Part shown: piece by piece, positions 3,214 through 16,807 of the stretch
Numbering within the stretch: the first letter of the stretch is position 1
Layout of the letters: each line of letters begins with the position of its first letter
Source: Clostridia bacterium
GTDB taxonomy: Bacteria; Bacillota; Clostridia; Oscillospirales; CAG-272
NCBI GenBank assembly: GCA_017628875.1
Contig: JAGBYG010000162.1
Location: 1-43,939, forward strand
Length of the DNA stretch: 43,939 bases
Reading direction: 5' to 3'
Program-made: the position numbers and the translations under genes
Notes under the pieces: generated by a model
What the model saw: the letters and a program-made list of their open reading frames with translations, nothing else
Database searches by the model: none
Told to the model about the DNA's origin: nothing

Positions 3214-3214
3214 A

Positions 3215-3424
3215 TCAAGCACTCTCCTTTCCCCAATTAAGATTGGATCTTTCGGAGATCATATCCATTGCACGTGAATTCAAAAACTGAGTTTTGAACA
3301 AGAGCGCTTCTTTTTGAGCGTAGAAAACTTTGGGGTTTGTGTTGTGAGCATTTACATAACGAACTTCCCATCTTCCGCCATCGCAGGGTTTAATGATTGC
3401 ACGGGGTGTTTTGTTTGTCATCAT
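3215..3424 (-). CDS. Stand-alone integrase arm-binding-like domain
   Basis: This 69-residue protein lies between xis and int; its stop is one base before the int start codon. It starts at an ATGATG pair behind AAGGAG, overlapping nothing important upstream. Its core (GGRWEVRYVN ... YAQKEALLFKTQFLNS) lines up with the N-terminal domain of the neighbouring integrase (NGKWEVRFTK ... DKKADAIEFKLQVLNS), so it looks like a free copy of the AP2-like arm-binding domain with no catalytic domain. It could occupy arm sites and bias integration against excision, but no function is known to me. A duplicated integrase start that persisted by chance is the alternative. Confidence 0.7.
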   Translation of the reverse strand: MMTNKTPRAIIKPCDGGRWEVRYVNAHNTNPKVFYAQKEALLFKTQFLNSRAMDMISERSNLNWGKESA

Positions 3425-3425
3425 A

Positions 3426-3647
3426 TTACGCACACTCCTTTCCAAGCTTGAGATCTCCACCAAGGTTAATCCAAGAGAGAAGCTGATCTCTTTTGAGGTA
3501 AAGTCTTCCTCTGATGCCGACGGTGAGTTCGGAGTGGTCGTGAGCAATGGCATAAAAGCCGTTCTTTGTGATGCCCATTTTTTGAGCATCTTTTACTGTG
3601 ATGAGCATAGGGAGCTCGGGGTGAGTGCTGGTTTGTTTCTGTGTCAT
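3426..3647 (-). CDS. xis: Excisionase-like DNA-binding protein
   Basis: This 73-residue protein starts at ATG 3647, which has GAAAGGAAAG upstream; the longer frame to 3716 has no good site. The sequence MLITVKDAQKMGITKNGFYAIA, then RGRLYLKRDQLLSWI, is the winged-helix pattern of Tn916-type Xis proteins (HTH_17/MerR-like): helix-turn-helix, a basic wing, then a closing helix. It probably bends DNA at the element ends and promotes excision. It is the first gene of the integration operon, behind a strong promoter and a leader hairpin. The family fit is good, but the role is inferred from position. Confidence 0.8.
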   Translation of the reverse strand: MTQKQTSTHPELPMLITVKDAQKMGITKNGFYAIAHDHSELTVGIRGRLYLKRDQLLSWINLGGDLKLGKECA

Positions 3648-3713
3648 AGTTTTCTTTCCTTTCATTATATAGAATTGTTTTAATTTCTTTTTTAGGAAAC
3701 ATATGCTAAGAAA

Positions 3714-3766
3714 CAAAAAAGCATAGTTATCCTTAAAAAAGAAAACTATGCTATAGAGTTAACTCT
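3714..3766 (-). promoter_or_regulatory. Leader hairpin (attenuator) and palindrome before xis
   Basis: On the minus strand, downstream of the promoter, come the 12-bp palindrome AGAGTTAACTCT (3755-3766) and then a hairpin (3720-3728 with 3744-3752, GCATAGTT/AACTATGC) directly followed by TTTTTT. This has the form of an intrinsic terminator in the leader of the xis-int transcript. An AAGGATAACTATG inside it could start an ~10-codon leader peptide. Confidence 0.6.
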
Positions 3767-3780
3767 CTAACCCTATTAAT

Positions 3781-3809
3781 ATTGTACTCGAAAAAATGAC
3801 CAATGTCAA
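3781..3809 (-). promoter_or_regulatory. Sigma-A promoter for xis-int
   Basis: On the minus strand, a consensus -35 TTGACA (3809-3804) and -10 TACAAT (3786-3781) are separated by exactly 17 bases. The transcript would start near 3774 and run through the leader hairpin into xis. Confidence 0.82.
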
Positions 3810-3942
3810 TAGGTTTTGTCCGGTTTTCAAATTTTTTAAATAAAATTTTTAGGTTTTTTTAGAAAAATATGAATAATATCAAAGCTTTTTTAAACAATAA
3901 ATTGATGCAAAAACTTATCTTTTTTGTAATTATACATATATA

Positions 3943-3972
3943 AAAAATCCCTCAAATCGTTTGATTTGAGGG
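3943..3972 (-). terminator. Terminator of the abiE operon
   Basis: A 10-bp stem CCCTCAAATC (3949-3958) with GATTTGAGGG (3963-3972), loop GTTT, followed on the minus strand by ATTTTTTA. It lies 8 bases after the abiEii stop. Confidence 0.85.
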
Positions 3973-3979
3973 TATATTG

Positions 3980-4843
3980 TTATACTGCACTTTCAAACAG
4001 TGCTATTTCTTTTTCTAAAATGTTGCAACTTGTATGCAAGACGTTTTTCCAAGCAAGGTCGCCCACATAATAGCTATATGATTTATAATTTTTCCAGTTG
4101 CTTTCGAGGTAATCACTTTGCTTGATATCTTTAAGAATGTCATCAAGATTATCAAAAAGATGTAATGTTCCTCTTTTACGAGCCACATTTAGGATTGCCT
4201 GCTCCAAAATCTTGAGATTAATCTCTGATTGCATCTCTGTCCACAAAATATGTATATCATAAAAATCTCTCATACGAGTGTTAAGTGTGGAACGCGCAAC
4301 TATAGTTTCAAGCTTTTCTGCGAGTACGGTTTCAAGATTGTATGACCAAATGTCAAGCTTTTCATCATCGAACATCATTTTGTAAGAAAATTCGATGGCA
4401 GCGGGTGTGATTTCATCACCAGTTGAAACATCTACCTTGATTGTGTCTCTAAGCTTTTCAAGAGTTACTTCCAATGTAAAACGAATACCGGCATAGTCGT
4501 GTTCTTCCATAATGTCTTCAATCTTTGTGATGCTGAAGGTAAGACCGTCGTCAAGATCCGTCTTAGCAATTTCTTTGATGATGGAAGAAGCAACTTCCTT
4601 TGTTAATGAAAGAGAACGAACGGTGGTGTCAATATCCATAGTCGCTCTTGCTTCAACACCTACAAGCGCAGAAACGAGCATACCGCCTTTGAGAATGAAG
4701 TTGTTTTTGTATTCCGATTGAGCAATTCTTGCAAGAAATCTCTCCATCATATATTTTCTGATAAGCATCTGAGCTTTTGTGCTATCGTTTCCTGACAAAT
4801 TAGAAATCTTATCTTTTAACTGTCTTGATGTTTTGATAATCAT
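3980..4843 (-). CDS. abiEii: AbiEii-type nucleotidyltransferase toxin
   Basis: This 287-residue protein has the AbiEii/MenT-like nucleotidyltransferase signature: FILKGGMLVSALVG (the GG-S-type loop) followed about 10 residues later by RATMDIDTT, which carries the metal-binding Asp pair (about residues 50-74). A C-terminal helical region includes the typical EKLETIVARS and RMRDFYDIHIL motifs (about residues 185-215). Family members are type IV toxins that block growth by nucleotidyl transfer, often to tRNA, and some give phage abortive infection. It overlaps the upstream antitoxin gene by 4 bases, so the pair is translationally coupled. All key motifs look intact. Confidence 0.87.
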   Translation of the reverse strand: MIIKTSRQLKDKISNLSGNDSTKAQMLIRKYMMERFLARIAQSEYKNNFILKGGMLVSALVGVEARATMDIDTTVRSLSLTKEVASSIIKEIAKTDLDDGLTFSITKIEDIMEEHDYAGIRFTLEVTLEKLRDTIKVDVSTGDEITPAAIEFSYKMMFDDEKLDIWSYNLETVLAEKLETIVARSTLNTRMRDFYDIHILWTEMQSEINLKILEQAILNVARKRGTLHLFDNLDDILKDIKQSDYLESNWKNYKSYSYYVGDLAWKNVLHTSCNILEKEIALFESAV

Positions 4844-5433
4844 AACAATACCTCCATATATTGACGGATTTCCGCTTCAATGCCAAATTCTTTTGCATAC
4901 GTCATTAGTCGGGGTAAATTTTTGGAAGAACTTTTCGCATATTCCTTCATAGCGTAAGCAAACATTTGAGGATCTTTTTTGTCCTTTACGCGCACAAGGT
5001 CGCAAATTGTACGCTCCATATCGTAAACGGGAACTTCATTTCCGTAAGTTGTTTTTGCGGTGCTTTTGCCTAAGTCTAACCATTCTTCTTTGACTTGATA
5101 TACAGAAATGCCCCTGCTACGCAAACGAGAAGCGTTGTATTTTCTTGGAACTGTAAGAAAGATTGTACCTGGCTCGCGCTCGGTCAATCCGTGCAACATA
5201 AGAGCAGTATCAAAAGAGCATACTGCTTTTTCGCTTTTTAATGTTGCAATGTATAGCTCGTCCGTCCATATATCGGGAGACTTATATAAACCGTGAGCAA
5301 CCTTTTCAAAATTGTTATTTTTTAGATATTCTTGGATATAAACCCTTGAAATTCCAAGCGCTTGCGCTTCGGAAATCAATACATATCCATTACATTTTTC
5401 AATCAATTCAATTAATCTATCGGTCTTTGTCAT
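4840..5433 (-). CDS. abiEi: AbiEi-type antitoxin / autoregulator
   Basis: This 197-residue protein has an N-terminal winged helix (residues 1-55: IEKCNGYVLISEAQALGISRVYIQEYLKNNNFEKVAHGLYK) followed by the AbiEi C-terminal domain (FDTALMLHGLTEREPGTIFLTVPRKYN, then VYDMERTICDLVR), matching the AbiEi antitoxin family. Known members neutralise AbiEii and repress their own promoter by binding inverted repeats. Here a sigma-A promoter upstream has an inverted repeat around its -10 box, which fits that model. Start 5433 has AAGGTAGG upstream. The pair probably stabilises the island or gives phage defence. Confidence 0.87.
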   Translation of the reverse strand: MTKTDRLIELIEKCNGYVLISEAQALGISRVYIQEYLKNNNFEKVAHGLYKSPDIWTDELYIATLKSEKAVCSFDTALMLHGLTEREPGTIFLTVPRKYNASRLRSRGISVYQVKEEWLDLGKSTAKTTYGNEVPVYDMERTICDLVRVKDKKDPQMFAYAMKEYAKSSSKNLPRLMTYAKEFGIEAEIRQYMEVLL

Positions 5434-5451
5434 AATTACACCTACCTTTTA

Positions 5452-5488
5452 TGCTTACAATTATATCATAAGTAAGCACGAATGTAAA
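5452..5488 (-). promoter_or_regulatory. abiE promoter with inverted-repeat operator
   Basis: On the minus strand, -35 TTTACA (5488-5483) and -10 TATAAT (5465-5460) have 17-base spacing. The inverted repeat TGCTTAC (5452-5458) ... GTAAGCA (5472-5478) brackets the -10 box, where an AbiEi autorepressor would act. Confidence 0.8.
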
Positions 5489-5601
5489 GTATTTTTTGAA
5501 ATTTTATTAAATATTTTATTTTTTTGCAAAAATTGAAGAATTTTGTTGAAAAGATGGGTAATATATTATGTCGTGCAAATAAAATCTTATTACAATTATT
5601 C

Positions 5602-5633
5602 AATTTTATCATTTTTGCAAAAATGATAAAATT
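5602..5633. promoter_or_regulatory. Perfect 32-bp palindrome upstream of fic
   Basis: Arms 5602-5616 and 5619-5633 (AATTTTATCATTTTT and its complement) meet at a central GC, so all 32 bases are self-complementary. It ends 4 bases before the -35 box of the fic-hsd promoter. A second copy of its centre (TTTTTTGCAAAAATT) lies near 5521-5534. It is probably an operator. Confidence 0.65.
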
Positions 5634-5637
5634 AAAC

Positions 5638-5666
5638 TTGACAATTGATTATAATAAGGGTATAAT
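5638..5666 (+). promoter_or_regulatory. Sigma-A promoter for the fic-hsd operon
   Basis: Consensus TTGACA (5638-5643), a 17-base spacer, and TATAAT (5661-5666). It lies 32 bases before the fic start codon and is the only strong promoter seen before hsdM. Confidence 0.85.
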
Positions 5667-5698
5667 ATATGTAGAAAAATATATTTTTAGAGGTTATT

Positions 5699-6760
5699 AT
5701 GAGAAATTACGCTTATAACAACAAGTGGAAAAAGCTTTTGACGCCGGAAATTGTTTTGCTGTTGACACAAATTCACGAGTATAAAGGTGAGCAAGCCTTA
5801 TTTGTGGAGACTAAAGCTGATACACTTACACAGCTTGTTGAAGTTGCAAAGATACAGAGTACAGAGGCATCAAACAAAATCGAAGGTATTTACACTTCCG
5901 ACGAGCGTTTGAAAAGCATTGTTGCAAACAAAACTATGCCCCGAACAAGAAACGAGCAGGAAATTGCCGGTTATCGTGATGTACTTGCTACTATTCACGA
6001 AAACTACACATATATCCCCGTTAAGCCATCTATCATTTTGCAGCTCCATCGCGATTTGTATAAATTTAGTGGCAAATCCATTGGTGGTAATTACAAGGTA
6101 TCTGAAAATGTGATTGCCGAAGAAGATGAAGCGGGTAATAAACGTATTCGTTTTCAGCCTGTAGTATCTTGGGAAACACCGGGAGCAATAGATACTATAT
6201 GTGCAGAATTTGATGAAATGATTTCACAAACTGATGTAGATCCTCTTTTAATCATTCCAATGTTTGTGTTGGATTTTCTTTGTATTCACCCCTTTAACGA
6301 CGGAAACGGTAGAATGAGCCGTTTGCTTACGTTGTTGCTTTTGTATCGTGCAGGATATACCGTTGGAAAATATATCAGTATTGAAAAATTGATTGAGCAA
6401 ACCAAAGAAACATATTATGAAGCATTGCAAAATAGTTCTGCGAATTGGCACGAGGGTGAAAACGATTATATTCCTTTCGTTCAATATACACTTGGTGTAG
6501 TGCTTGCGGCTTACCGCGAATTTTCAGTAAGAATGAAATCAATGGCTACCAATAATATGTCAAAGCCCGAGCGCATCAAAGAACTTATAAAAAACATACT
6601 CGGAACGATTACAAAAACAGAAATTATGAAGGAATGTCCCGATATAAGCCAAATTACTGTGCAGAGAGCACTTAATGATTTGGTTACAAGCGGAGAAATT
6701 TTGAAAATTGGCGGCGGACGTTATACCGCATATATGTGGAACCACAATAAGGAGAATTAA
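5699..6760 (+). CDS. Fic family protein (putative AMP transferase)
   Basis: This 353-residue protein has the intact Fic motif HPFNDGNGRMSR (His about 197), which catalyses transfer of AMP or another nucleotide moiety to target hydroxyls. An N-terminal inhibitory helix motif SNKIEG (S58...E62-G63) fits the class II pattern (S/T)xxxE(G/N), so activity is probably autoinhibited. Residues about 285-345 form a winged-helix domain (ILGTITKTEIMKECPDISQITVQRALNDLVTSGEILKIGGGRYTAY), so it may bind DNA or regulate the operon. It starts behind a strong promoter, and hsdM follows after two bases, so it is the first gene of the R-M operon. Fic genes beside type I R-M systems are known, but their target there is unclear. 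Confidence 0.9.
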   Translation: MRNYAYNNKWKKLLTPEIVLLLTQIHEYKGEQALFVETKADTLTQLVEVAKIQSTEASNKIEGIYTSDERLKSIVANKTMPRTRNEQEIAGYRDVLATIHENYTYIPVKPSIILQLHRDLYKFSGKSIGGNYKVSENVIAEEDEAGNKRIRFQPVVSWETPGAIDTICAEFDEMISQTDVDPLLIIPMFVLDFLCIHPFNDGNGRMSRLLTLLLLYRAGYTVGKYISIEKLIEQTKETYYEALQNSSANWHEGENDYIPFVQYTLGVVLAAYREFSVRMKSMATNNMSKPERIKELIKNILGTITKTEIMKECPDISQITVQRALNDLVTSGEILKIGGGRYTAYMWNHNKEN

Positions 6761-6762
6761 TT

Positions 6763-8265
6763 ATGATTACAGGTGAACTTAAAAATAGAATTGACGGACT
6801 TTGGGACGTATTTGCGGCGGGGGGAATTGTAAATCCCATTAGTGTAATTGAGCAAATTACATATCTTATGTTTATTCACGAGCTTGACGAAACGGATAAC
6901 CTTCGTGCAAAGGAAGCTGTTATGCTCGGACTTCCTCATAAGAGTATTTTTGCAGATAGAGTTAAGGTTGGCGACCGCGAGATTGACGGTCAGCAGCTCA
7001 AGTGGTCGGTGTTCCACGATTTTCCTGCAGGAAAGATGTATTCAACCGTGCAGGAGTGGGTTTTCCCGTTTATTAAGAATCTTCACGATGATAAGGATAG
7101 CGCATATTCCAAATATATGGACGATGCGATTTTCAAAATTCCCACACCCTTGCTTCTTGATAAAATAGTAACCATACTTGACGATATTTATGACAAAATG
7201 TCACAGATAAAGGATACGGATATCCGTGGCGACGTTTATGAATATTTGCTCTCTAAAATTGCGCAGTCGGGACTTAACGGTCAGTTCCGTACTCCTCGAC
7301 ACATCATTCGTATGATGGTCGAGCTTATGGACCCCAAGGCGGACGAGGTTATTTGTGACCCCGCGTGTGGTACTTCGGGATTTCTTGTTGCGGCAGGGGA
7401 TTACTTGAATGAAAAGCGCAAGGAAGAAATCTTCTTCAATAGACAAAAGAAGGCACACTATATGAACGGAATGTTCCACGGCTACGATATGGATAGAACA
7501 ATGCTCCGTATCGGTGCGATGAATATGATGACGCACGGTGTGGACAACCCCTATATCGAATACCGTGATAGCTTGTCCGATCAGAATACGGATAAGGAGA
7601 AATACTCACTTATACTTGCAAACCCACCTTTCAAGGGAAGTCTTGACTACGATACAGTTTCTGCAGACTTGCTTAAGGTTTGCAAAACCAAAAAGACCGA
7701 GCTTTTGTTTCTTGCATTGATGCTTCGTATGCTTCGCGTGGGCGGAAGATGTGCGGTTATCGTTCCCGATGGCGTGCTTTTCGGTTCATCAACTGCACAC
7801 AAGGCAATTCGCAAGGCTATCGTTGATGACAATAGACTTGAAGCGGTTATTTCTATGCCCTCAGGCGTGTTCAAGCCCTATGCGGGAGTTTCAACAGGAA
7901 TTCTTATTTTCACAAAGACAGGACACGGTGGAACTGATAATGTTTGGTTCTATGATATGCAAGCGGACGGATTTAGCTTGGACGATAAGCGCACCGAGGT
8001 AAAGGAAAATGACATTCCTGATATTATAGCGCGTTTCCATAATCGTGATGGCGAAATCGACCGCGCACGCACCGAAAAGAGCTTTTTCGTTCCAAAATCC
8101 GAGATAGTTGGCAACGATTATGACCTTTCAATAAATAAGTATAAAAAGACTGAATATAAGCCCGTGGAGTATGCTCCCACAAAGGAGATTTTGGCTGAAA
8201 TCAACGAACTTGAAGCACAGATCCAGCAAGGACTCAAAGAGTTGGAGGGGATGTTGAATGGATAG
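6763..8265 (+). CDS. hsdM: Type I R-M DNA methyltransferase subunit
   Basis: This 500-residue adenine-N6 methyltransferase subunit modifies the host recognition site and is also needed for the restriction complex. An N-terminal helical HsdM domain (residues 1-150) is followed by the catalytic domain, with AdoMet-binding motif DPACGTSGFLVAA (about 199-211) and catalytic NPPF (about 287-290). The GQFRTPRHIIRMMVEL stretch before motif I is characteristic of HsdM. The last 8 bases overlap the next gene. Codon use and GC resemble hsdR and differ from the AT-rich genes that follow. It appears intact. Confidence 0.95.
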   Translation: MITGELKNRIDGLWDVFAAGGIVNPISVIEQITYLMFIHELDETDNLRAKEAVMLGLPHKSIFADRVKVGDREIDGQQLKWSVFHDFPAGKMYSTVQEWVFPFIKNLHDDKDSAYSKYMDDAIFKIPTPLLLDKIVTILDDIYDKMSQIKDTDIRGDVYEYLLSKIAQSGLNGQFRTPRHIIRMMVELMDPKADEVICDPACGTSGFLVAAGDYLNEKRKEEIFFNRQKKAHYMNGMFHGYDMDRTMLRIGAMNMMTHGVDNPYIEYRDSLSDQNTDKEKYSLILANPPFKGSLDYDTVSADLLKVCKTKKTELLFLALMLRMLRVGGRCAVIVPDGVLFGSSTAHKAIRKAIVDDNRLEAVISMPSGVFKPYAGVSTGILIFTKTGHGGTDNVWFYDMQADGFSLDDKRTEVKENDIPDIIARFHNRDGEIDRARTEKSFFVPKSEIVGNDYDLSINKYKKTEYKPVEYAPTKEILAEINELEAQIQQGLKELEGMLNG

Positions 8266-8857
8266 AAAAGATAAAAAACGTACTGCGAGAGCCAGAAGAA
8301 TAAGAAACTCTGGAGAATATGTGGATGTTAGTTTTACTATTAAGCAAATGGAAAAAATGATTGATGAAAAGCTCCAATCAATGAAGTTTTTTATTCCTTT
8401 TGTGTTAACTATCGTTACTTCATTGCTTGCTTATTTATTTACAACAACCTCAAATGCTTTTGATGATTATATATACATAATAGTAGCGTATCTTTTGCTG
8501 TGTTTGGGTTCAATTTTGCGTGCATATAAGCCATCAAACAGATATATAGGAAAAGAAAGCTGGTTTAAATTTGAGAAAAAACTAAAAAGAAATTTGGAAT
8601 TTTATCCAGATATTCAACCTTGGAATATGGAAAGCTATATTAATTTAAGTGATACTGAGTTTATTACTCGTTTGGAAAAGTTTGTAAGTAGAAAGCTATA
8701 TCAAGATGAATTGATGTCAGCTCAATTTCTTAAACAAAAAATAAATGAGTATAGGTACAAAAAACGCAACATTTCCATATCTTACACAGTGATAATTGTG
8801 GGAGCATTGGCATTAGCTTTGCTTTTTGCTATTGAATATGTTTGGAGCGTAATGTAG
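8258..8857 (+). CDS. Unknown 3-TM protein between hsdM and hsdS
   Basis: This 199-residue protein overlaps hsdM by 8 bases, with a GGAGGGG ribosome binding site inside the hsdM end. After a basic N-terminus (residues 1-20) and a short helix come two membrane segments (about 44-62 and 70-89), a charged helical soluble part (about 95-170) and a third segment (about 173-195). No enzyme motif is visible and I do not recognise the family. It is much richer in A+T than hsdM. The shape recalls membrane effectors with a cytoplasmic sensor module, but that is only a resemblance. hsdS begins 8 bases after it. Confidence 0.75.
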   Translation: MDRKDKKRTARARRIRNSGEYVDVSFTIKQMEKMIDEKLQSMKFFIPFVLTIVTSLLAYLFTTTSNAFDDYIYIIVAYLLLCLGSILRAYKPSNRYIGKESWFKFEKKLKRNLEFYPDIQPWNMESYINLSDTEFITRLEKFVSRKLYQDELMSAQFLKQKINEYRYKKRNISISYTVIIVGALALALLFAIEYVWSVM

Positions 8858-8865
8858 AGGTGAAT

Positions 8866-9972
8866 ATGGCAAGATTAGGTGATTATATAGAACAAATTCG
8901 GGGAGTATCATACAAACCAGAAGATGTTTGTTCATCAACGGATATAGATGCTGTAGCAATTCTTCGTGCTAATAATATTCAGGATGATGAATTAAATTTT
9001 GATGATTTAGTTTATGTTAGGAAAAGCAAAGTTCACGAGAAGCAATATATCCAAAAAGGGGATATCGTTGTTTGTGCATCGAGTGGAAGCAAAAACTTGG
9101 TTGGAAAAGCAGCTGTAGCTAAAGAGAATATGCAGATTTCCTTTGGAGCATTTTGTAAAGTTGTACGTCCTACGGGACTTTTACCAGGTTATGTGGGTCA
9201 TTTCTTTCAAAGTCCTAAATATAGAAGCACAATTTCCGATTTATCTGGCGGTGCGAATATAAATAATATTCGAAATGAACATATTGATGAGTTGGATATT
9301 GTAATTGTTTCCGAAGAAGAACAAGAAAAAATTATAAACGAACTTGACGCAATAAGCAACTTGATTTCCCTCCGCAAACAGCAACTTGCAAAATTGGACG
9401 AGCTTGTAAAATCCCGATTTGTCGAGATGTTTGGGGATTATAGAATTAACAACAAAGGATTTAATTGTAAAAAGGGTAGTGAGTTGTTTAAGTTTTCTTC
9501 AGGTAAGTTTTTGCCCGAAGAGAAAAGGCTTGAAAGTGGTATTCCTGTATATGGTGGAAATGGAATTGCTTGGTATACAGAAGAAGCTCTTATAGACTTT
9601 TCCACCATTATTATCGGTCGTGTTGGCGCTCAATGTGGTAACATTCATGCGGTAACTACTCCAGTTTGGATTACTGATAATGCTATCTATATTAAAGAGC
9701 AGAAGACAAAGGCATATACATTAGAGTTTTTGACTGAACTTATGCGAATGATGAATTTCTATCAGTATGCTGATTTTTCTGGACAACCGAAAATCACGCA
9801 GAAACCTTTGGAAACATTAGAGTATATTATCCCTCCAATTGAACTTCAAAAAGAATACACCGCCTTCGTCGAACAAATCGACAAATCGAAATTTGAAATT
9901 CAAAAGAGCTTAAATCAGCTCGAAATACTAAAAAAAGCATTAATGCAAAAATATTTTGGGGAAGGAGTATAA
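8866..9972 (+). CDS. hsdS: Type I R-M specificity subunit
   Basis: This 368-residue protein determines which DNA sequence HsdM and HsdR act on. It has two target recognition domains (about 1-145 and 200-330). Each is followed by a coiled-coil conserved region: EEQEKIINELDAISNLISLRKQQLAKLDELVKSRFVEMFG (about 145-190) and LQKEYTAFVEQIDKSKFEIQKSLNQLEILKKALMQKYFG at the end. The start ATG 8866 has AGAGGTG upstream and replaces a longer frame from 8842. The final codons (GGG GAA GGA GTA) also form the ribosome binding site of the next gene, and a copy of this 3' end appears again at 10909-10949. Confidence 0.93.
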   Translation: MARLGDYIEQIRGVSYKPEDVCSSTDIDAVAILRANNIQDDELNFDDLVYVRKSKVHEKQYIQKGDIVVCASSGSKNLVGKAAVAKENMQISFGAFCKVVRPTGLLPGYVGHFFQSPKYRSTISDLSGGANINNIRNEHIDELDIVIVSEEEQEKIINELDAISNLISLRKQQLAKLDELVKSRFVEMFGDYRINNKGFNCKKGSELFKFSSGKFLPEEKRLESGIPVYGGNGIAWYTEEALIDFSTIIIGRVGAQCGNIHAVTTPVWITDNAIYIKEQKTKAYTLEFLTELMRMMNFYQYADFSGQPKITQKPLETLEYIIPPIELQKEYTAFVEQIDKSKFEIQKSLNQLEILKKALMQKYFGEGV

Positions 9973-9975
9973 AAA

Positions 9976-10902
9976 ATGAGGTCTATTATTAAATTATCTA
10001 TCTTTGTGTTCTTTTCTATATTTGCAGCAGCTTTTCTATTTTTGCACTTATTTATGAATATTTTTATTCAGTTTGAATTAATATCAGATGAAATGGCGGT
10101 TTATATTTCCTTAATAATATCAATAATTTTAGCAATTGTTTCTGTAATAGTTTTTTTACTGGATATCAAAGCAGAAAAGAAAACCAAAATAGGACATTGG
10201 ATGCAAATTTATACCTCTAAGATTGTATTAGGATATATATTCTTGATTTTGTTTTTCGCATCGTTTAAATCAGAAGTGTTTTTAACTAAAGAGGTGGCAA
10301 GAGAATTGCTATCATTGGAATGGGTTATTTTGGGGATATCAATAGCTATATTTTTAATTTGGAATGTTAAGGTTATAGATTATTTGGAGAAGAAAAAGCC
10401 AACAAAACCTCAAGATTGTTTGCCAACCCAAAAAATGATTTATATACAAGCAAAAGAAAATTTTTACTTTGATTGTACTATGTTGCTAAAAAATATATAC
10501 TTATTGATTGCAAATATGATGATTGTTTGTGCTGCTACAGCGGCTGTATATTTATCATCAAAAGGAATGAACTTATTCACTCAAACTATATTAGTTTTTG
10601 GATTGTTTTTGTCTACTAACACTATTATTGGATTAATTTTTGACATATTGAAAATGTTCAGTGAAAAAAAGAATGAAATGTTAAAAGAAGCGAAGACCAC
10701 AATTTCTGATGTGGAACTTCAAAACGCAATACTTAAAGATGCAGATGAACTTCTCTTGATAGCAGAAAAAATACAGAATTCTCAAAGTATTGATGAAACA
10801 CAAAGAGCATTACTGATATCTGAATTAATTATAAACTTTAAAACCAAATACAATGATGAATCGAATGATAAAGACTTAATTCACAGGGATAACGAAAATT
10901 AA
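9976..10902 (+). CDS. Unknown 6-TM protein inserted after hsdS
   Basis: This 308-residue protein begins 3 bases after hsdS, using the AAGGAG in the hsdS tail. Six membrane segments are apparent (about 5-30, 41-63, 82-97, 115-132, 172-194, 201-224), followed by a soluble helical C-terminus (about 228-308; EKKNEMLKEAKTTISDVELQ). I recognise no family and see no catalytic motif. The gene is very AT-rich: bases 10081-10140 contain 14 G/C of 60, against 29 of 60 at 13261-13320 in hsdR. It is flanked on both sides by the hsdS-tail sequence, which suggests it was added as a cassette. Confidence 0.75.
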   Translation: MRSIIKLSIFVFFSIFAAAFLFLHLFMNIFIQFELISDEMAVYISLIISIILAIVSVIVFLLDIKAEKKTKIGHWMQIYTSKIVLGYIFLILFFASFKSEVFLTKEVARELLSLEWVILGISIAIFLIWNVKVIDYLEKKKPTKPQDCLPTQKMIYIQAKENFYFDCTMLLKNIYLLIANMMIVCAATAAVYLSSKGMNLFTQTILVFGLFLSTNTIIGLIFDILKMFSEKKNEMLKEAKTTISDVELQNAILKDADELLLIAEKIQNSQSIDETQRALLISELIINFKTKYNDESNDKDLIHRDNEN

Positions 10903-10908
10903 TTTTAT

Positions 10909-10949
10909 CGCTAAAAAACATTAACACAAAAATATTTTGGGAAAAGGAA
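10909..10949 (+). repeat. Repeat of the hsdS 3' tail
   Basis: Compared with the hsdS end at 9928-9968, this segment shares CTAAAAAA, CATTAA, then CAAAAATATTTTGGG and AAGGA, with a few changes and a 2-base gap. It lies outside any gene and supplies the ribosome binding site for the gene at 10957. A weaker resemblance (TATTTTGG ... GGAAAGG) occurs at 11354-11370, before the next gene. Confidence 0.7.
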
Positions 10950-10956
10950 AATTATT

Positions 10957-11328
10957 ATGGATAGTTTAATTGATATAAAATCAAGCCTTTCGGATATGTT
11001 TGAAGAAATCGACACACGAAATTATTATTTGGCAGATTGGAAATATGAAAAAATCAAAGAAGAAATAGAGCAATTTCAAACCAATCTTTCTGATGAAATG
11101 GACGTAGGTGTAGCATTAGCATCTTTTGGGACAAATATGATAATGCAAGTTATTGATATAGAATATCAAAATCCAGATTTGCTATATTTTCACGGTTATA
11201 TAAATGGTAATCGTGCCGAATTAATTCAACATGTGTCGCAACTTAATTTTGTCTTGATGGCAATAAAAAAAGATGATCCTAAACGTCCTGCAAGAAGAAT
11301 TGGATTTATCACCGATGATGAAGTATAA
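10957..11328 (+). CDS. Small soluble protein (possibly DUF6173)
   Basis: This 123-residue soluble protein is preceded by AAAAGGA within the hsdS-tail repeat. Residues 1-45 are helical and acidic. Residues 45-115 (VGVALASFGTNMIMQVIDIEYQNPDLLYFHGYINGNRAELIQHVSQLNFVLMAI, then RRIGF) resemble, from memory, the DUF6173 family of small proteins found near phage and defence genes. I cannot verify that here. No catalytic residues are apparent. It sits between two membrane-protein genes in the hsd operon and may be their soluble partner. Confidence 0.65.
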   Translation: MDSLIDIKSSLSDMFEEIDTRNYYLADWKYEKIKEEIEQFQTNLSDEMDVGVALASFGTNMIMQVIDIEYQNPDLLYFHGYINGNRAELIQHVSQLNFVLMAIKKDDPKRPARRIGFITDDEV

Positions 11329-11381
11329 TGGCTTTAGTTAGCTGGATTTCAACACTATTTTGGATGGAAAGGTAAAAACAA

Positions 11382-12620
11382 ATGAAAAAGAGAAAAATAG
11401 CTAAAAAATCTCTATATAAGTTAAAAAGAATGATAAAAAAGCGTCATAATAGAAGACGATTTTCAAAATTACAGAGAGTGATATTTCAATGTGTTTTGTT
11501 TTTGGGTTGGGCTACATTTATTAACTACTTGGTTTCTAATACGGCACCTTTTCTTGAGCAATATGTACCCACTGAGAATGAAAGTTGGGCAGTCGCCTTG
11601 ATTGCATTACCAGTAGCATTTTTAGGAATTTGGCTATCCATTTATTTGCCTTGTTTGACAAAATATAACAGTTGTTTTGCAAATAAGACATTGAATTCTA
11701 TATACAGTAAAACATTACATTGGTTTGATTTTCAATCTTTTTTTGTGCTTAGATTTTCATTTGATTTTCTATTATGGTCAGTTGCTTTCTTTGGATTAAT
11801 GTATACAAAAATGATAGCATATTCTTTTGTTATGGCGATTGATTTGCTATATCTAATTTGTTTTACTGTTTGGAAATATAAGCAACGCCCTTGTAACATT
11901 TATATGAGTAATATTATGAAATCTTATTTTCAGTCTATATCTAAATATTCAAGTCAACAGTTAGAAAATATTAATAAGTTAATCAATGAAGATAAACTTG
12001 ATGAGGCGCAAAAGGAAGAAAAATATATTCATTTTTCTTTTTGGCAAGAGATAGACGAATTAATGTTATCTATCATTACTGACAAAAATAATAATGAAGA
12101 AAAAGATGCTTTCATATGCATTTTTTCCGAGTTGCTCAAACTTCCTTTTCAAGAAGCCAACGGACTGATTATTGACAACTATATTAACCGAGCTGCGGTT
12201 ATATTCGAGCATTCTATAGATGTTGGAGACTATTTATATGCTAAAAAAATATCGGATTTGGTATTTGAAGCTTGGTATAATTATCTTGAAAAGATATGTA
12301 ATTATTTAGAGGAATATATTAAACATTCCCAAAATATACAAGAAAATTATAAGTATTTATATTTGAATGAATTGGAAGAATATGTGTGCGTTGAGACTGA
12401 GATAGGGTGTCAATTTAATGTTATATATAAAATTTTTAAGTTACATAATAGTAGTATATTGACGCTTATAAAAAACTCAAAGAATAATGTTATTACAAGT
12501 GAATATATTAGCAATTGGCACACCGAAGAAGCATTTTTGTGTTTATGTGCCTTGCGCGAAAAACAGTTGGACAAAATTAATGATGCTCTAAAATCTAATA
12601 TAAGAGAGGTATTGAAATGA
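11382..12620 (+). CDS. Unknown 4-TM protein before hsdR
   Basis: This 412-residue protein has a strongly basic N-terminus (residues 1-31, many Lys/Arg), four membrane segments (about 32-52, 68-90, 120-140, 144-164) and a long soluble alpha-helical C-terminal domain (about 170-412). Its last 4 bases overlap the hsdR start (ATGA), so it is translationally coupled to the restriction subunit. GGAAAGG precedes the start. I do not recognise the family. The membrane anchor with a large cytoplasmic helical domain would suit a sensor or effector that responds to the R-M complex, but there is no direct evidence for that. It is AT-rich compared with hsdR. Confidence 0.75.
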   Translation: MKKRKIAKKSLYKLKRMIKKRHNRRRFSKLQRVIFQCVLFLGWATFINYLVSNTAPFLEQYVPTENESWAVALIALPVAFLGIWLSIYLPCLTKYNSCFANKTLNSIYSKTLHWFDFQSFFVLRFSFDFLLWSVAFFGLMYTKMIAYSFVMAIDLLYLICFTVWKYKQRPCNIYMSNIMKSYFQSISKYSSQQLENINKLINEDKLDEAQKEEKYIHFSFWQEIDELMLSIITDKNNNEEKDAFICIFSELLKLPFQEANGLIIDNYINRAAVIFEHSIDVGDYLYAKKISDLVFEAWYNYLEKICNYLEEYIKHSQNIQENYKYLYLNELEEYVCVETEIGCQFNVIYKIFKLHNSSILTLIKNSKNNVITSEYISNWHTEEAFLCLCALREKQLDKINDALKSNIREVLK

Positions 12621-15600
12621 CCAACTTCGATTTCTTAGAAAAGAACCCCGATTTTGACGCGTTTAGTGACGTGGCGATATCGGCGGAGAAATTATTACAT
12701 ATAGACATTGATGCCTGTGTTATAAACTGTCGCAGGGCGATGGAGTTTGCGATCAAGTGGATGTATTCCGTTGACCGTGATCTCGTTATGCCTTATCAGG
12801 ACAACCTTGTTTCACTTATGAACGAGGACAGCTTCAGGCATTTGATTGGCAACGATATTTGGCGACGTATTGAGTACATTCGCAAGCTTGGTAACAATGC
12901 GGCGCACGGTGGCAAAAAGATTACGCGCGAGCAAGCAGAACTGTGTATTGAAAACCTTTTTGTGTTCCTTGATTGTCTTGCGTGCTACTATTCTGCAGAC
13001 TACGAGGAGCAAGGGTTTGACAAGTCTTTGCTTGAGCTTACAGTTGAAGAAGCGGTTTCGTTTGTTCCCGATGTTGATATTGATATCAATCAGCTTATAG
13101 AAGAAAACAAGGCGCTCAAAATGGAGCTCACCGCCCGCCGTGCCGAACAACAACAGACATATGTGCCGAAGCCACTTGATCTTTCTGAATACAAAACGAG
13201 AAAGATTTATATTGACGTTATGCTTCAAGATGCGGGCTGGAGTGAGGGCAAGGACTGGATAAACGAGGTTGAGCTCTACGGAATGCCCAACAAGAGTGAG
13301 GTGGGATATGCCGATTATGTTCTCTATGGTGACGATGGCAAGCCCCTTGCGCTGATTGAGGCAAAGCGTACTTGCGTTGACGTTTCCAAGGGCAGACAGC
13401 AGGCAAAGCTATATGCCGATCTTTTGGAGCAGAAATACGGTCGCAGGCCGATAATCTTCCTCTCCAACGGCTTTGACACGCACATTTGGGACGACAAACA
13501 TTATCCCGAGCGCAAGGTAGCGGCCATTTATTCAAAGCGCGATCTTGAAAAGCTTTTCAATCTTCACACTATGCGCACAAGCCTTAAAAACGTGATGGTG
13601 GACAAGCACATTGCGGGACGTTATTATCAAGAGGGAGCAATCAAGGCGATTTGTGAGGCGTTTGACAAGAAAAATCGCAGAAAAGCACTTCTTGTTATGG
13701 CAACCGGTTCGGGTAAAACGAGAACCGTTATTGCTCTTTGCAAGGTGTTACTTGATCACAGTTGGGTAAAGAATATTTTGTTCCTTGCCGACCGAAATTC
13801 ACTTGTTACACAGGCAAAGCGTAGCTTTGTCAATATGTTGCCCGATCTCTCGGTTACTAACCTTTGCGAAGATAAGGATAACTTTGATGCGCGCTGCGTA
13901 TTTTCTACCTATCAAACAATGATGAATTGCATTGATACAATCAAAGATGAGAACGAAAGAAAGCTTTTTACCGTTGGGCACTTTGACCTTGTTATCGTTG
14001 ATGAAGCGCACCGTTCAATTTATAACAAATATAAGGATATTTTCAATTATTTCGATGCTCCGTTGGTAGGTTTAACAGCTACACCCAAGGACGAGATTGA
14101 CAAGAATACTTATGAGATATTTGAGCTTGAAAACGGTGTTCCTACCTATGGTTACGAGCTTGCTCAAGCAGTTACTGACGGATTTCTTGTTGATTTTGTA
14201 TCCGTTGAAAGCAAGCTGAAATTTATTGAGCAAGGAATTGTATATGATGACCTTTCCGAAACGGATAAAGAAGCATATGAAAATACATTTGAGGACGAAA
14301 ACGGAGATTTGCCCGAAAGTATTGCTTCATCTGCAATTAACGAGTGGGTATTTAATGAAGATACTATTCGTCAAGTGCTTCATATTCTTATGAGTGACGG
14401 TTTGCGCGTGGATTACGGTGAAAAGCTTGGTAAAACCATTATTTTTGCTAAAAATCACGAGCACGCGGAGAAAATTCACGAGATATTTGGCAAGGAATAT
14501 CCTCATTTGCCCGGTTATACAAAGGTAATCGACAACTATATGACCTATGCGCAAAGTGCGATTGACGAATTTTCAAATCCCACGAAAATGCCTCAAATTG
14601 CAATTTCCGTTGATATGCTTGACACAGGTATTGACGTGCCCGAGGTTCTTAATCTTGTTTTCTTTAAGAAGGTTATGAGTAAGGCAAAGTTTTGGCAGAT
14701 GATAGGCCGTGGAACTCGTCGTTGTGACGGACTTATGGACGGTAAGGATAAGGATAAATTCTATATCTTTGATTTTTGCGGCAACTTCGAATTTTTCCGT
14801 ATGAACAACGGACGTCCTACAGCAAACTTGATTGCGTTGCAAGGAGCTATATTCAAATTGAAGGCGCAAATTGCATATAAATTGCAGGATCTTGTATATC
14901 AAATTCCCGATTTGATTGATTTCCGTAAATCTTTGGTAGATGATATGGTGCGCAAGGTTAAGGAGCTAAATAAAGAAAATTTTGCTGTTCGTCAGCATTT
15001 GCGTTACGTCGAGAAGTATTCAAATGAAGAAAATTATAATGTTCTTACATATGAGGATACTCTTTTGATGTCTCAAGAACTTGCCCCTCTGATTACTCCT
15101 GATGAGGACGAGGCGTCAGCTGTACGATTTGATGCCTTGATGTATGGAATTGAGCTTGCATATCTTGCGGGTAAAAAATATTCTCGCGCTCGTACCGACT
15201 TGTACAAAAAGGTTAGTGGAATTGCAAGCGTAGCGAACATTCCCGAGATTATGGCCAAATCCGAACTTATTAATAAAATTTTACACACGGATTATATTGA
15301 TAATGCCGGTATTAACGAATTTGAATATATCCGTGAAAATCTTCGTGATTTGGTGAAATACATTCCTAAAAGACGCATAAAATATATCACTAATTTCGAT
15401 GAGGAAATTTTGAACGTTGAATGGAACGATTCCGAATTGGAGAATGACGATCTCAAAAACTATAAAGCTAAAGCGGAATATTACATTCGTCAACATCAAG
15501 ATGAATACGTTATTGCTAAACTTAGAAAGAATATTCCTCTGAATGAAGATGATATTAAGACACTTGAAAATATCTTGTGGAGTGAAGTCGGAAGCAAAAA

Positions 15601-15913
15601 GGAATATGAAGCTGAATATGGCCAAAAGCCTCTCGGTGAGCTTGTCCGAGAAATCGTTGGTCTTGATATGGCGGCAGCAAAAGAAGCCTTTGCAGAATAT
15701 TTGAACAGTGTAAATCTTGATGCAAATCAAATTTATTTTGTAAACCAAATTATAGAATATATAGTTCACAATGGTATTTTAAAGGACTTTACAGTTCTTC
15801 AAGAGCCGCCATTTACTGATAAAGGTAGTATTGTTGAAATATTCACCGATGTTTCTGTGTGGTTCGGTTTACGAAAAGTAATTGACCAAATTAATAGAAA
15901 TGCTGCGGCATAA
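12617..15913 (+). CDS. hsdR: Type I R-M restriction subunit
   Basis: This 1098-residue ATP-dependent translocase/endonuclease cuts unmodified DNA in complex with HsdM and HsdS. Residues 1-130 resemble a DUF4145-type helical domain (RRAMEFAIKWMYS, IRKLGNNAAHG). The nuclease domain follows, with the PD-(D/E)xK pattern GYADYVLYGDDGKPLALIEAKR (about 229-250). The SF2 helicase carries Walker A MATGSGKT (about 360-368), DEAH (about 460-463), GLTATP (motif III) and MIGRGTRR (motif VI). A C-terminal helical region ends the protein. All motifs look intact. A strong terminator at 15917-15945 closes the operon. Confidence 0.96.
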   Translation: MTNFDFLEKNPDFDAFSDVAISAEKLLHIDIDACVINCRRAMEFAIKWMYSVDRDLVMPYQDNLVSLMNEDSFRHLIGNDIWRRIEYIRKLGNNAAHGGKKITREQAELCIENLFVFLDCLACYYSADYEEQGFDKSLLELTVEEAVSFVPDVDIDINQLIEENKALKMELTARRAEQQQTYVPKPLDLSEYKTRKIYIDVMLQDAGWSEGKDWINEVELYGMPNKSEVGYADYVLYGDDGKPLALIEAKRTCVDVSKGRQQAKLYADLLEQKYGRRPIIFLSNGFDTHIWDDKHYPERKVAAIYSKRDLEKLFNLHTMRTSLKNVMVDKHIAGRYYQEGAIKAICEAFDKKNRRKALLVMATGSGKTRTVIALCKVLLDHSWVKNILFLADRNSLVTQAKRSFVNMLPDLSVTNLCEDKDNFDARCVFSTYQTMMNCIDTIKDENERKLFTVGHFDLVIVDEAHRSIYNKYKDIFNYFDAPLVGLTATPKDEIDKNTYEIFELENGVPTYGYELAQAVTDGFLVDFVSVESKLKFIEQGIVYDDLSETDKEAYENTFEDENGDLPESIASSAINEWVFNEDTIRQVLHILMSDGLRVDYGEKLGKTIIFAKNHEHAEKIHEIFGKEYPHLPGYTKVIDNYMTYAQSAIDEFSNPTKMPQIAISVDMLDTGIDVPEVLNLVFFKKVMSKAKFWQMIGRGTRRCDGLMDGKDKDKFYIFDFCGNFEFFRMNNGRPTANLIALQGAIFKLKAQIAYKLQDLVYQIPDLIDFRKSLVDDMVRKVKELNKENFAVRQHLRYVEKYSNEENYNVLTYEDTLLMSQELAPLITPDEDEASAVRFDALMYGIELAYLAGKKYSRARTDLYKKVSGIASVANIPEIMAKSELINKILHTDYIDNAGINEFEYIRENLRDLVKYIPKRRIKYITNFDEEILNVEWNDSELENDDLKNYKAKAEYYIRQHQDEYVIAKLRKNIPLNEDDIKTLENILWSEVGSKKEYEAEYGQKPLGELVREIVGLDMAAAKEAFAEYLNSVNLDANQIYFVNQIIEYIVHNGILKDFTVLQEPPFTDKGSIVEIFTDVSVWFGLRKVIDQINRNAAA

Positions 15914-15916
15914 TAC

Positions 15917-15945
15917 AAGGGACGAGGAGTAATCCTCGTCCCTTT
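15917..15945 (+). terminator. Terminator of the fic-hsd operon
   Basis: A 12-bp stem AAGGGACGAGGA (15917-15928) with TCCTCGTCCCTT (15933-15944), loop GTAA, and a short T-run. It lies 4 bases after the hsdR stop. Confidence 0.85.
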
Positions 15946-16048
15946 GCATTATTAACTAAAAACCTTGTATAGAAAAACGAGTTTATATTTTCATCTTTCA
16001 TAATTATAACAACGGCGATGTGCCGAAATTTTTATGAGAGGTGTTTAT

Positions 16049-16807
16049 ATGAGCTTTTTTATTATTCCGGGAGATATTTTTTCTTATGATTTGAAACCAA
16101 ATGAGATTGCGGTTTTTTCGTTTTTGTGTTCGTGCGCAGACAATAAGACTTTTGATTGTTTTCCAAGCGTTAAGAAGATTGCAAAAGCTTGCAATATGGG
16201 GCAATCTACCGTGAGGGCGGTAATTCACACCTTACAAGAAAAGGGTTTAATCAAAATCAAGTCTCAGTACAAGCCTATACCTGATAGCGACAAGCGCAGA
16301 CAAACGTCCAATCTATATCACGTATCGTTGCTTGAGGAGTGTCGCAAAGAGGAACGAGAAATGAGACAATTTTACAAATCTATGATGAGGACGGCACATA
16401 GGAAAGAGGGGGTGCCTCCAGGAAATAGAGACCAATTAACTAAACCTAATATAACTACGACCCGCATCGAAAACAAGCCTTCTGGTTCCCAAAAGTCTTG
16501 TTCTGATGCATCTATTTCTTCAAGCGAAACAGATTTTGCAATGCTTAGAGATACGTGTATTCAAGAACTTACCTACTATGGTGAAGAGCTGTCCTGTTGT
16601 GGTTGGATTGTTCGAGAGGCTTTGAACATTATATGGAACGATCTTGTATTTGATAGTGATAACCCCACTGTTCAAAGGAAGTTGATACTAAAACATCTGA
16701 ATGCTAAACTCGTGGTCAGGGTTTTGAACGGATTTGAAATAGATGGCGCCTATGATGTCACGCCGATGTCGCTATGTGGACCGTTGTACGAGGTGCTGGT
16801 TCGTTGA
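16049..16807 (+). CDS. Helix-turn-helix (HTH_36) element protein
   Basis: This 252-residue protein starts at ATG 16049 behind AGAGGTG; ATG 16034 lacks a site. Residues about 15-80 form a winged helix (LKPNEIAVFSFLCSCADNKTFDCFPSVKKIAKACNMGQSTVRAVIHTLQEKGLIKI), the HTH_36 type common in plasmid and conjugative-element replication or control proteins of Firmicutes. A low-complexity linker (about 115-165) joins a helical C-terminal domain (about 170-245). Its DNA target may be the inverted repeats just downstream (16876-16965). It could be a replication or transfer regulator; the exact role is not shown. Confidence 0.7.
   Translation: MSFFIIPGDIFSYDLKPNEIAVFSFLCSCADNKTFDCFPSVKKIAKACNMGQSTVRAVIHTLQEKGLIKIKSQYKPIPDSDKRRQTSNLYHVSLLEECRKEEREMRQFYKSMMRTAHRKEGVPPGNRDQLTKPNITTTRIENKPSGSQKSCSDASISSSETDFAMLRDTCIQELTYYGEELSCCGWIVREALNIIWNDLVFDSDNPTVQRKLILKHLNAKLVVRVLNGFEIDGAYDVTPMSLCGPLYEVLVR

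Follow-up and report, generated by a model that had tools for sequence, protein, structure and literature searches.

The stretch of DNA studied here, called the window throughout, comprises positions 1 to 43,939 of contig JAGBYG010000162.1 from a Clostridia bacterium (Oscillospirales, CAG-272; assembly GCA_017628875.1) and contains a restriction-modification (R-M) operon in which four further genes, hereafter cargo, are embedded. All genes lie on one strand, closely packed in the order fic-hsdM-[3-TM]-hsdS-[6-TM, DUF6173, 4-TM]-hsdR, where TM stands for transmembrane helix (Table 1). On its sequence the operon is assigned to type I, EcoEI-like, since HsdM, HsdS and HsdR are all present and HsdR combines an EcoEI-type C-terminus with a DUF4145 N-terminus, matching both PF04851 and PF08463. 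In Campylobacter jejuni, open reading frames (ORFs) between hsdM and hsdS of type I loci have been named mlo and those between hsdS and hsdR rlo (PMC5183652). The window cargo fits that definition, and the two positions, here the M-S and the S-R slot, are the mlo and rlo positions.

Table 1. Features of the operon and of one recurrent cargo family; positions refer to the window unless a related locus is named.
Feature	Position	Strand	Basis or remark
Candidate sigma-70-type promoter TTGACA-17-TATAAT, upstream of fic	5638..5666	+	12/12 consensus positions
fic, 353 aa, Fic-domain protein, first gene of the operon	5699..6760	+	PF02661 E 6e-13; SoFic 9.8e-37
hsdM, 500 aa	6763..8265	+	PF02384 E 3.8e-66
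3-TM protein, 199 aa, M-S slot cargo	8258..8857	+	weak 2TM effector/SLATT-like matches; L009 homologue
hsdS, longest frame with TTG start	8842..9972	+	PF01420 E 2.8e-20
hsdS 3' tail, reference copy of the repeat	9932..9963	+	repeat search
6-TM protein, 308 aa, S-R slot, putative cassette 1, without family	9976..10902	+	L039 35%, L033 31%
hsdS-tail relic in the gap before the DUF6173 gene	10913..10944	+	88% of 32 nt
DUF6173 protein, 123 aa, soluble, S-R slot, putative cassette 2	10957..11328	+	PF19670 E 3.8e-16
Possible trace (suggestive only) of a second, decayed hsdS tail ahead of the 4-TM gene	11344..11364	+	p ~0.03
4-TM protein, 412 aa, long hydrophilic C-terminal part, orphan, S-R slot cargo 3	11382..12620	+	hydropathy
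hsdR, 1098 aa	12617..15913	+	EcoEI_R_C (PF08463) 7.7e-19; DUF4145 1.7e-15; REase_I 2e-158
P[ND]PFECFGD family in related loci	L006:11497-11835, L016:11494-11850, L018:7641-7994, L043:10851-11201, L065:1973-2335		

The 3-TM ORF overlaps hsdM by 8 bases and the 4-TM ORF overlaps hsdR by 4, while hsdS and the 6-TM gene are 3 bases apart; for hsdS, translation more likely begins at the in-frame ATG at 8866 than at the TTG. A preliminary description, made from the letters alone, had given this layout with the same coordinates, strand and spacings, all of which were borne out by the ORF check. Its counts of three, six and four TM helices beside one small soluble protein agree with a hydropathy scan, which finds a single borderline segment in the latter. 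It had also placed fic at the head of the operon, correctly: 2 bases separate it from hsdM, and it follows the only perfect TTGACA-17-TATAAT match within 5400-16100, promoter-like matches overall being about as frequent as expected by chance (50 observed vs 42.5 in shuffled sequence). The Fic protein possibly ends in a winged helix, with matches below cut-off. The ratio of nonsynonymous to synonymous substitution (dN/dS), at saturated dS, was 0.14 for the 3-TM gene (against its homologue in related locus L009), 0.13 for the DUF6173 gene (against L018) and 0.39 for the 6-TM gene (against L039), so these three ORFs look protein-coding; dS was not obtained for two other DUF6173 pairs, and for the 4-TM gene there is no relative for such a comparison.

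A repeat search showed that the 3' end of hsdS recurs, as a 32-nt copy, within the non-coding bases that separate the 6-TM gene from the DUF6173 gene. Together with the identity of the DUF6173 protein, this repeat had been missed in the preliminary description. The candidate decayed copy ahead of the 4-TM gene was evaluated by Markov resampling, and 17 of 773 window stretches of the same length score equally well.

Related operons were collected by an HsdM scan with one genome per species, which gave at least 581 relatives; the best 80, with 75-94% identity and mostly from metagenome-assembled genomes of animal-gut Clostridia, were kept. Their ORFs were called mechanically (at least 60 aa) and labelled by BLAST against the window proteins, so that some near 60 aa are possibly false. 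In 64 of the 80 loci hsdM, hsdS and hsdR were all found in order. Among these complete loci the M-S slot holds cargo in 29, the S-R slot in 57, both in 26 and neither in 4, which leaves 60 of 64 with cargo. Packing is tight in the relatives too (median gap 9 nt; 228 of 267 same-strand gaps at most 50 nt), and of the 74 loci with at least 1.5 kb of sequence 5' of hsdM, 52 have fic no farther than 700 nt upstream of it. The preliminary description had singled out the four genes as far more AT-rich than hsdM and hsdR. The comparison itself is right, the guanine-plus-cytosine (GC) content being 0.302 (3-TM), 0.273 (6-TM), 0.309 (DUF6173) and 0.282 (4-TM) vs 0.437 for hsdM and 0.404 for hsdR, but it is no special mark of these genes: hsdS is likewise low (0.353) and cargo GC lies below the hsdM/hsdR mean in all 60 complete related loci with cargo, so AT-richness marks cargo generally rather than membrane genes.

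Cargo turns over fast between operons whose HsdM and HsdR are similar. The closest of the kept relatives, L006 (HsdM 94%, HsdR 88%), has none of the window cargo, and among 16 loci that were tabulated (L006-L021) only L009 (3-TM, M-S slot) and L018 (DUF6173, S-R slot) have any. Over all 80 loci there is one confident homologue of the 3-TM protein (L009), two of the 6-TM protein (L039, L033), two of DUF6173 (L018, L054) and none of the 4-TM protein, and no relative has two of the four genes together. The 3-TM and 6-TM homologues occupy the same slot as in the window; the 6-TM homologue is the sole cargo in L039 and stands behind an unrelated 187-aa ORF in L033.

Short copies of hsd gene ends, as seen in the window, also lie at a minority of the cargo joints of the relatives. 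Three position-weight matrices, one each for the hsdS tail (33 nt), the final 21 nt of that tail and the hsdR head (30 nt), were run on the relatives, the window not counted. They covered the 49 loci in which both an hsdS tail and an hsdR head are recognisable (the other 31 of the 80 lack one and were dropped) and 65,088 S-R bases with second hsdS ORFs masked. On the coding strand of the S-R slots they gave 7, 8 and 5 matches, respectively, and none on the opposite strand; 1,456,494 flank strand-bases gave 2, 3 and 4. Loci with matches were 8 of the 22 that have two or more slot ORFs on either strand vs 0 of the 27 that have one or none (Fisher p 7e-4, an indicative value, since the matrices derive from these very loci, which are related to one another). 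A check free of matrices compared the last 300 nt of each hsdS and the first 300 nt of each hsdR with the same operon's slot by BLASTN at E 1e-4, which resulted in 10 coding-strand matches in 7 of 59 S-R slots and none on the opposite strand. With the last 300 nt of hsdM there was a match in 1 of 36 M-S slots and none on the opposite strand; this copy (L077:4579-4646; 68 nt, 90%) stands ahead of hsdS and behind cargo of DUF3791/DUF3990 type. A matrix for hsdM tails was tried and discarded as useless, with 8 slot matches set against 400 in the flanks at the same threshold.

Most hsdS-tail relics measure 30-40 nt, with one of 92 nt (91%) in L024, and the hsdR-head relics are 101 nt (L010, 94%), 131 nt (L054, 83%) and 63 nt (L029, 86%) long. 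Six of eight hsdS-tail relics, the window's included, end no more than about 20 nt from the likely start of the next cargo gene. In L014 two joints read cargo - hsdR head - hsdS tail - cargo, and in L024 this order recurs, its hsdR head being weak (20 nt, E 0.04) and its hsdS tail clear. An hsdR head - hsdS tail order of this kind would result if [hsdS tail - cargo - hsdR head] units were joined in tandem. The two L014 joints (L014:6966-7019 and L014:8269-8326) are near-identical chimeras of hsdR start and hsdS tail that separate three cargo genes, the first of which clusters with the AbiH-like cargo of L010 and L013.

We consider it rather probable that the fic-headed type I R-M operon is a carrier of interchangeable accessory genes stacked in two slots. 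Given the relic hsd ends at cargo joints, the slots seem to gain their cassettes through recombination at the ends of hsd genes: cassettes flanked by such ends, for instance [hsdS tail - cargo - hsdR head], would be imported and stacked there and would be expressed from the fic promoter by shared transcription. In the window the 6-TM gene would be one cassette and the DUF6173 gene a second; the 4-TM gene probably either makes up a third or belongs to the second, and the 3-TM gene would fill the other slot. Judged by its company and shape, the cargo may consist of independent anti-phage accessories rather than parts of one complex, and the TM proteins most likely act at the membrane, each alone, by abortive infection or exclusion, as might SieB in L007. 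A wider version, in which two-slot platforms of gut Clostridia capture defence cassettes through recombination at the ends of hsd genes and the membrane cargo of the window represents new membrane-acting anti-phage effectors that sense failure of their own R-M enzyme, seems improbable.

Several observations weigh against the carrier reading. Curated cut-offs for named defence families are not reached by any of the window cargo, so its defence role is by association only. In the window an hsdR-head relic was not found, BLASTN with the window's own hsdM end gave no hsdM relic, and the joint before the 4-TM gene is weak. The related loci are not independent of one another. Relics are missing from 14 of the 22 multi-ORF loci, for which another route of stacking or decay must be assumed, and in the M-S slot L077 has the one clear relic. 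When the cut-off was relaxed, an hsdR-head matrix of 22 nt matched 6 times on the coding strand, once on the opposite strand and 8 times in the flanks.

What the slots hold in relatives was determined by a family scan of all 46 M-S-slot ORFs and 93 of the 103 S-R-slot ORFs (at least 80 aa), and the following counts are among the 25 commonest families listed. The majority of the slot cargo has no known function. RhuM (six in the M-S, one in the S-R slot), Bro-N (three), Fic (three), Schlafen AlbA_2 (two and one) and, weakly, HipA_C (two) occur in the M-S slot or in both. The S-R slot holds AbiH (three), CAP12/Pycsar TIR (three), DUF4062 (two), Abi_alpha (one), SieB (one), HNH (two) and integrase-family proteins (five). 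The SieB superinfection-exclusion protein is the S-R cargo of L007 (L007:3300-3866, E 7.2e-20), and in L054 a CAP12/Pycsar TIR protein comes after DUF6173 (E 2.2e-37). The statement of the preliminary description that the four genes sit inside a genuine type I R-M operon holds, and the slots of relatives also contain abortive-infection and exclusion families.

In the S-R slot multi-TM proteins are no rule; in the M-S slot they are common. Two or more TM helices were predicted for 6 of 93 S-R ORFs, which is no over-representation, and for 20 of 45 M-S ORFs vs 81 of 619 in the flanks (ORFs of at least 80 aa; p 1e-6). This excess comes mainly from two families, and a general membrane enrichment of the M-S slot was rejected, since after collapsing families the counts are 4 of 16 vs 66 of 501 (p 0.25). 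The commonest M-S cargo among the slot ORFs is a small 3-TM family of 13 members, none of them in the S-R slot, that often start MAKKK...IDYDKLAEAIVKAQ (L007:1681-2157, L008:12636-13112, L033:11494-11931 and 10 more loci). Two members were checked, and that of L033 matches the PADLOC phage defence candidate (PDC) model PDC-M18B; profile comparison detected no relation of this family to the 3-TM protein of the window. Another small multi-TM family, of about 115 aa and with the motif P[ND]PFECFGD, was found among the slot ORFs only in the M-S slot (Table 1). With two multi-TM genes between hsdS and hsdR the window stands out, since just 6 of the 64 complete loci have any in this slot.

Profile searches and structure prediction, which the preliminary description had proposed, gave a name to one of the four cargo proteins and weak matches for another. 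The small soluble protein belongs to Pfam family DUF6173. The 3-TM protein weakly matches the PADLOC 2TM effector of the cyclic-oligonucleotide-based anti-phage signalling system (CBASS; E 6.9e-6), PycTM (0.0012) and the NCBIfam model SLATT_4 (0.0016), the last below the SLATT cut-off with 18.3 bits vs 55; its L009 homologue, 55% identical, has no PADLOC match at E 0.1, so the 2TM/SLATT likeness is only a lead. The 6-TM and 4-TM proteins lack a meaningful match in Pfam, PADLOC and NCBIfam, and the 4-TM protein found no confident relative in searches of families, plasmids, phages, viral contigs, PDB, genomes or by profile comparison. None of the four matches a PADLOC PDC model, as some cargo of relatives does, or SieB (PF14163), and none carries an ATPase or nuclease family of the kind that marks PrrC/RloC anticodon nucleases. 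Among the ten proteins scanned, those of the fic, hsd and cargo genes included, there is no cGAS/DncV-like nucleotidyltransferase (CD-NTase), by which CBASS is recognised; the adjacent AbiEii belongs to another nucleotidyltransferase family.

Plasmids contained no relatives of the 6-TM, 4-TM and 3-TM proteins or of a member of the relatives' small 3-TM family, and phages none of the 6-TM and 4-TM proteins, the two that were queried. In viral contigs, short peptide patterns of the 6-, 3- and 4-TM proteins found nothing, nor did alignments of the 6-TM and 3-TM families or of the relatives' 3-TM family. PDB sequence searches gave no meaningful match, and profile comparison showed no relation of the three TM proteins to each other or to other cargo, known homologues aside (best other probability 28.7%). 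Structure prediction was of no help: the AlphaFold models were poor, with predicted local distance difference test (pLDDT) values of 42.5 for the 3-TM and 62.2 for the 6-TM protein, and a comparison of the latter with viral folds found nothing at E 0.001. Across 295 genomes from the order and 361 from the class, searches returned the window itself and six short weak matches (in G025, G060, G069, G265, G375 and G468), all with internal stop codons. Surroundings were fetched for G060, G069 and G025; the last two showed nothing of note. That in G060 is a match to the 3-TM protein (L104:8810-9106; 27%, five stops) just 5' of fic in another fic-hsdM-hsdS-hsdR operon, and may be a chance match or a decayed copy.

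DUF6173 occurs in 7 of the 361 class genomes, the window's included. Two of the seven lie in hsd S-R slots, namely the window and L100, whose HsdR is 70.5% identical over 648 aligned residues; the other five lie away from hsd operons, judged on the stretches fetched, so DUF6173 is a general accessory and no part of the R-M system. It also occurs without the other three window cargo genes. In all four hsd-embedded cases seen it directly follows an hsdS tail, a real one in L018 and L100 and a relic in the window and L054. Two of the five genes away from hsd operons, L099:3251-3649 and L103:7923-8267, have neighbouring ORFs that read as integrase-like and repressor-like, within what seem to be mobile elements; this setting hints that DUF6173 serves element or phage immunity. 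The preliminary description had made linkage to hsd genes one of its touchstones, and the tally is divided: the homologues of the 3-TM (one) and 6-TM (two) proteins are all in hsd slots, in a sample biased by its choice of loci through HsdM, whereas DUF6173 is so in two of seven class-wide matches.

Other explanations were weighed against the carrier reading; their probabilities overlap and do not sum to one. Unlikely, yet with a precedent, is a guard model along the lines of the preliminary description, in which the R-M complex silences one or more membrane proteins that open or damage the membrane when phage anti-restriction disturbs the complex, comparable to the tRNA cleavage by PrrC in EcoprrI. 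PrrC, a latent nuclease whose gene lies within an hsd operon, is released on T4 infection (PMC3874165). The tight packing, with the 3-TM gene overlapping hsdM, would suit it, as would the weak likeness of the 3-TM protein to 2TM/SLATT effectors, a class that is sometimes paired with another sensor (DRT9; PMC12483538). However, the SLATT-like match is missing in the L009 homologue, the cargo families occur with and without each other, and the embedded TgvAB protects without the rest of its R-M operon, if less strongly against several phages (PMC11411939).

That the hsdS-tail relics are remains of degraded second hsdS genes, and not marks of imported cassettes, is a reading we hold to be improbable. 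Two hsdS genes do stand around an integrase-family gene in L027, L031, L034, L069 and L080, and the L024 relic is long, at 92 nt. The other hsdS-tail relics, though, have only about 30-40 nt and six of the eight stop close to the likely start of the next cargo gene, and loss of an hsdS gene leaves unexplained the two chimeric joints of L014, the hsdR heads of L010, L029 and L054 and the hsdM tail of L077. To a similarly low degree one might see the cargo as neutral hitch-hikers, kept by the selfish stability of the R-M operon without a role in defence. Such passengers could well lack a named defence family, as the four window genes do, turn over as fast as this cargo and stand elsewhere in the genome as DUF6173 does in five of its seven class-wide matches; dN/dS well below 1 for the 3-TM and DUF6173 genes speaks against this, as does the richness of the slots in Abi, TIR and exclusion families, even if no function is known for the bulk of the cargo. 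A single multi-protein membrane complex of all four genes, a new system for which their tight packing on a single strand would speak, is very improbable, with none of 80 relatives having two of them together, the 6-TM homologue alone in L039 and a relic splitting the 6-TM and DUF6173 genes. The candidate new system of the preliminary description, with membrane proteins built into the operon, likewise lacks support as one unit, DUF6173 also being found without the other three.

Accessory genes inside type I R-M operons are already known, but their route of entry and their pile-up are undescribed in the literature searched. The C. jejuni loci resemble the window in having ORFs in both hsd slots; the window differs in its gene families, its Clostridia host and its EcoEI-type operon, usually with fic, and relic hsdS-tail or hsdR-head joints go unmentioned in the available portions of PMC5183652 and PMC2610378. 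EcoprrI likewise has an accessory gene inside an hsd operon, that of the cell-suicide effector PrrC, but PrrC is an anticodon nuclease, whereas the window cargo has no nuclease or ATPase match. Further defence genes embedded in type I R-M operons are DarTG2, which sits in an RptR-controlled hsd island of enteropathogenic Escherichia coli where the hsdS-hsdR site has been called a potential recombination hotspot (PMC12255303), and TgvAB of Vibrio cholerae pathogenicity island VPI-2 (PMC11411939). The former is a toxin-antitoxin pair and the latter a type IV restriction system, and the parts of both papers at hand describe no cassette joints. In Geobacillus kaustophilus an hsdR relic stands beside rloC, an accessory gene borne on a transposon (PMC2610378); that relic is a long C-terminal portion of 568 residues, unlike the short heads and tails at cargo joints inside the hsd operon that we describe. 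The 3-TM protein resembles SLATT and CBASS 2TM effectors in size and weak profile matches; it differs in scoring below the SLATT cut-off, in a homologue without the match and in the lack of a CD-NTase. The "guilt-by-embedding" candidates of Payne et al. 2024, as cited in the available text of PMC12255303 and PMC12988326, follow the same general approach. No description of short hsdS-tail or hsdR-head relics at cargo joints was found in the portions of literature searched, a search whose scope did not extend to Miller 2005 and the Payne preprint, so that such a description may still exist.

The relics of hsdS tails and hsdR heads at cargo joints suggest a simple way, open to testing, by which cargo could enter. 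They also provide a handle for single-gene anti-phage candidates, to be read out as the stretch from a genuine or relic hsdS tail up to the relic that follows. Here they help to divide an apparent four-gene system into genes that can be tested one by one, two of them coding for membrane proteins without a database family.

Adjoining the R-M operon, the minus strand of the window at 1993-5433 carries a tyrosine integrase gene (PF00589, E 7.5e-22) followed by AbiEii toxin and AbiEi genes, and the ensemble looks like an integrated defence island; a tRNA gene as integration site was not found within the window. Between hsdM and hsdR of the five loci with two hsdS genes named above, the integrase-family protein that these genes flank has about 322 aa, an arrangement suggesting that specificity genes are shuffled. 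In L045 a second hsdS lies on the opposite strand.

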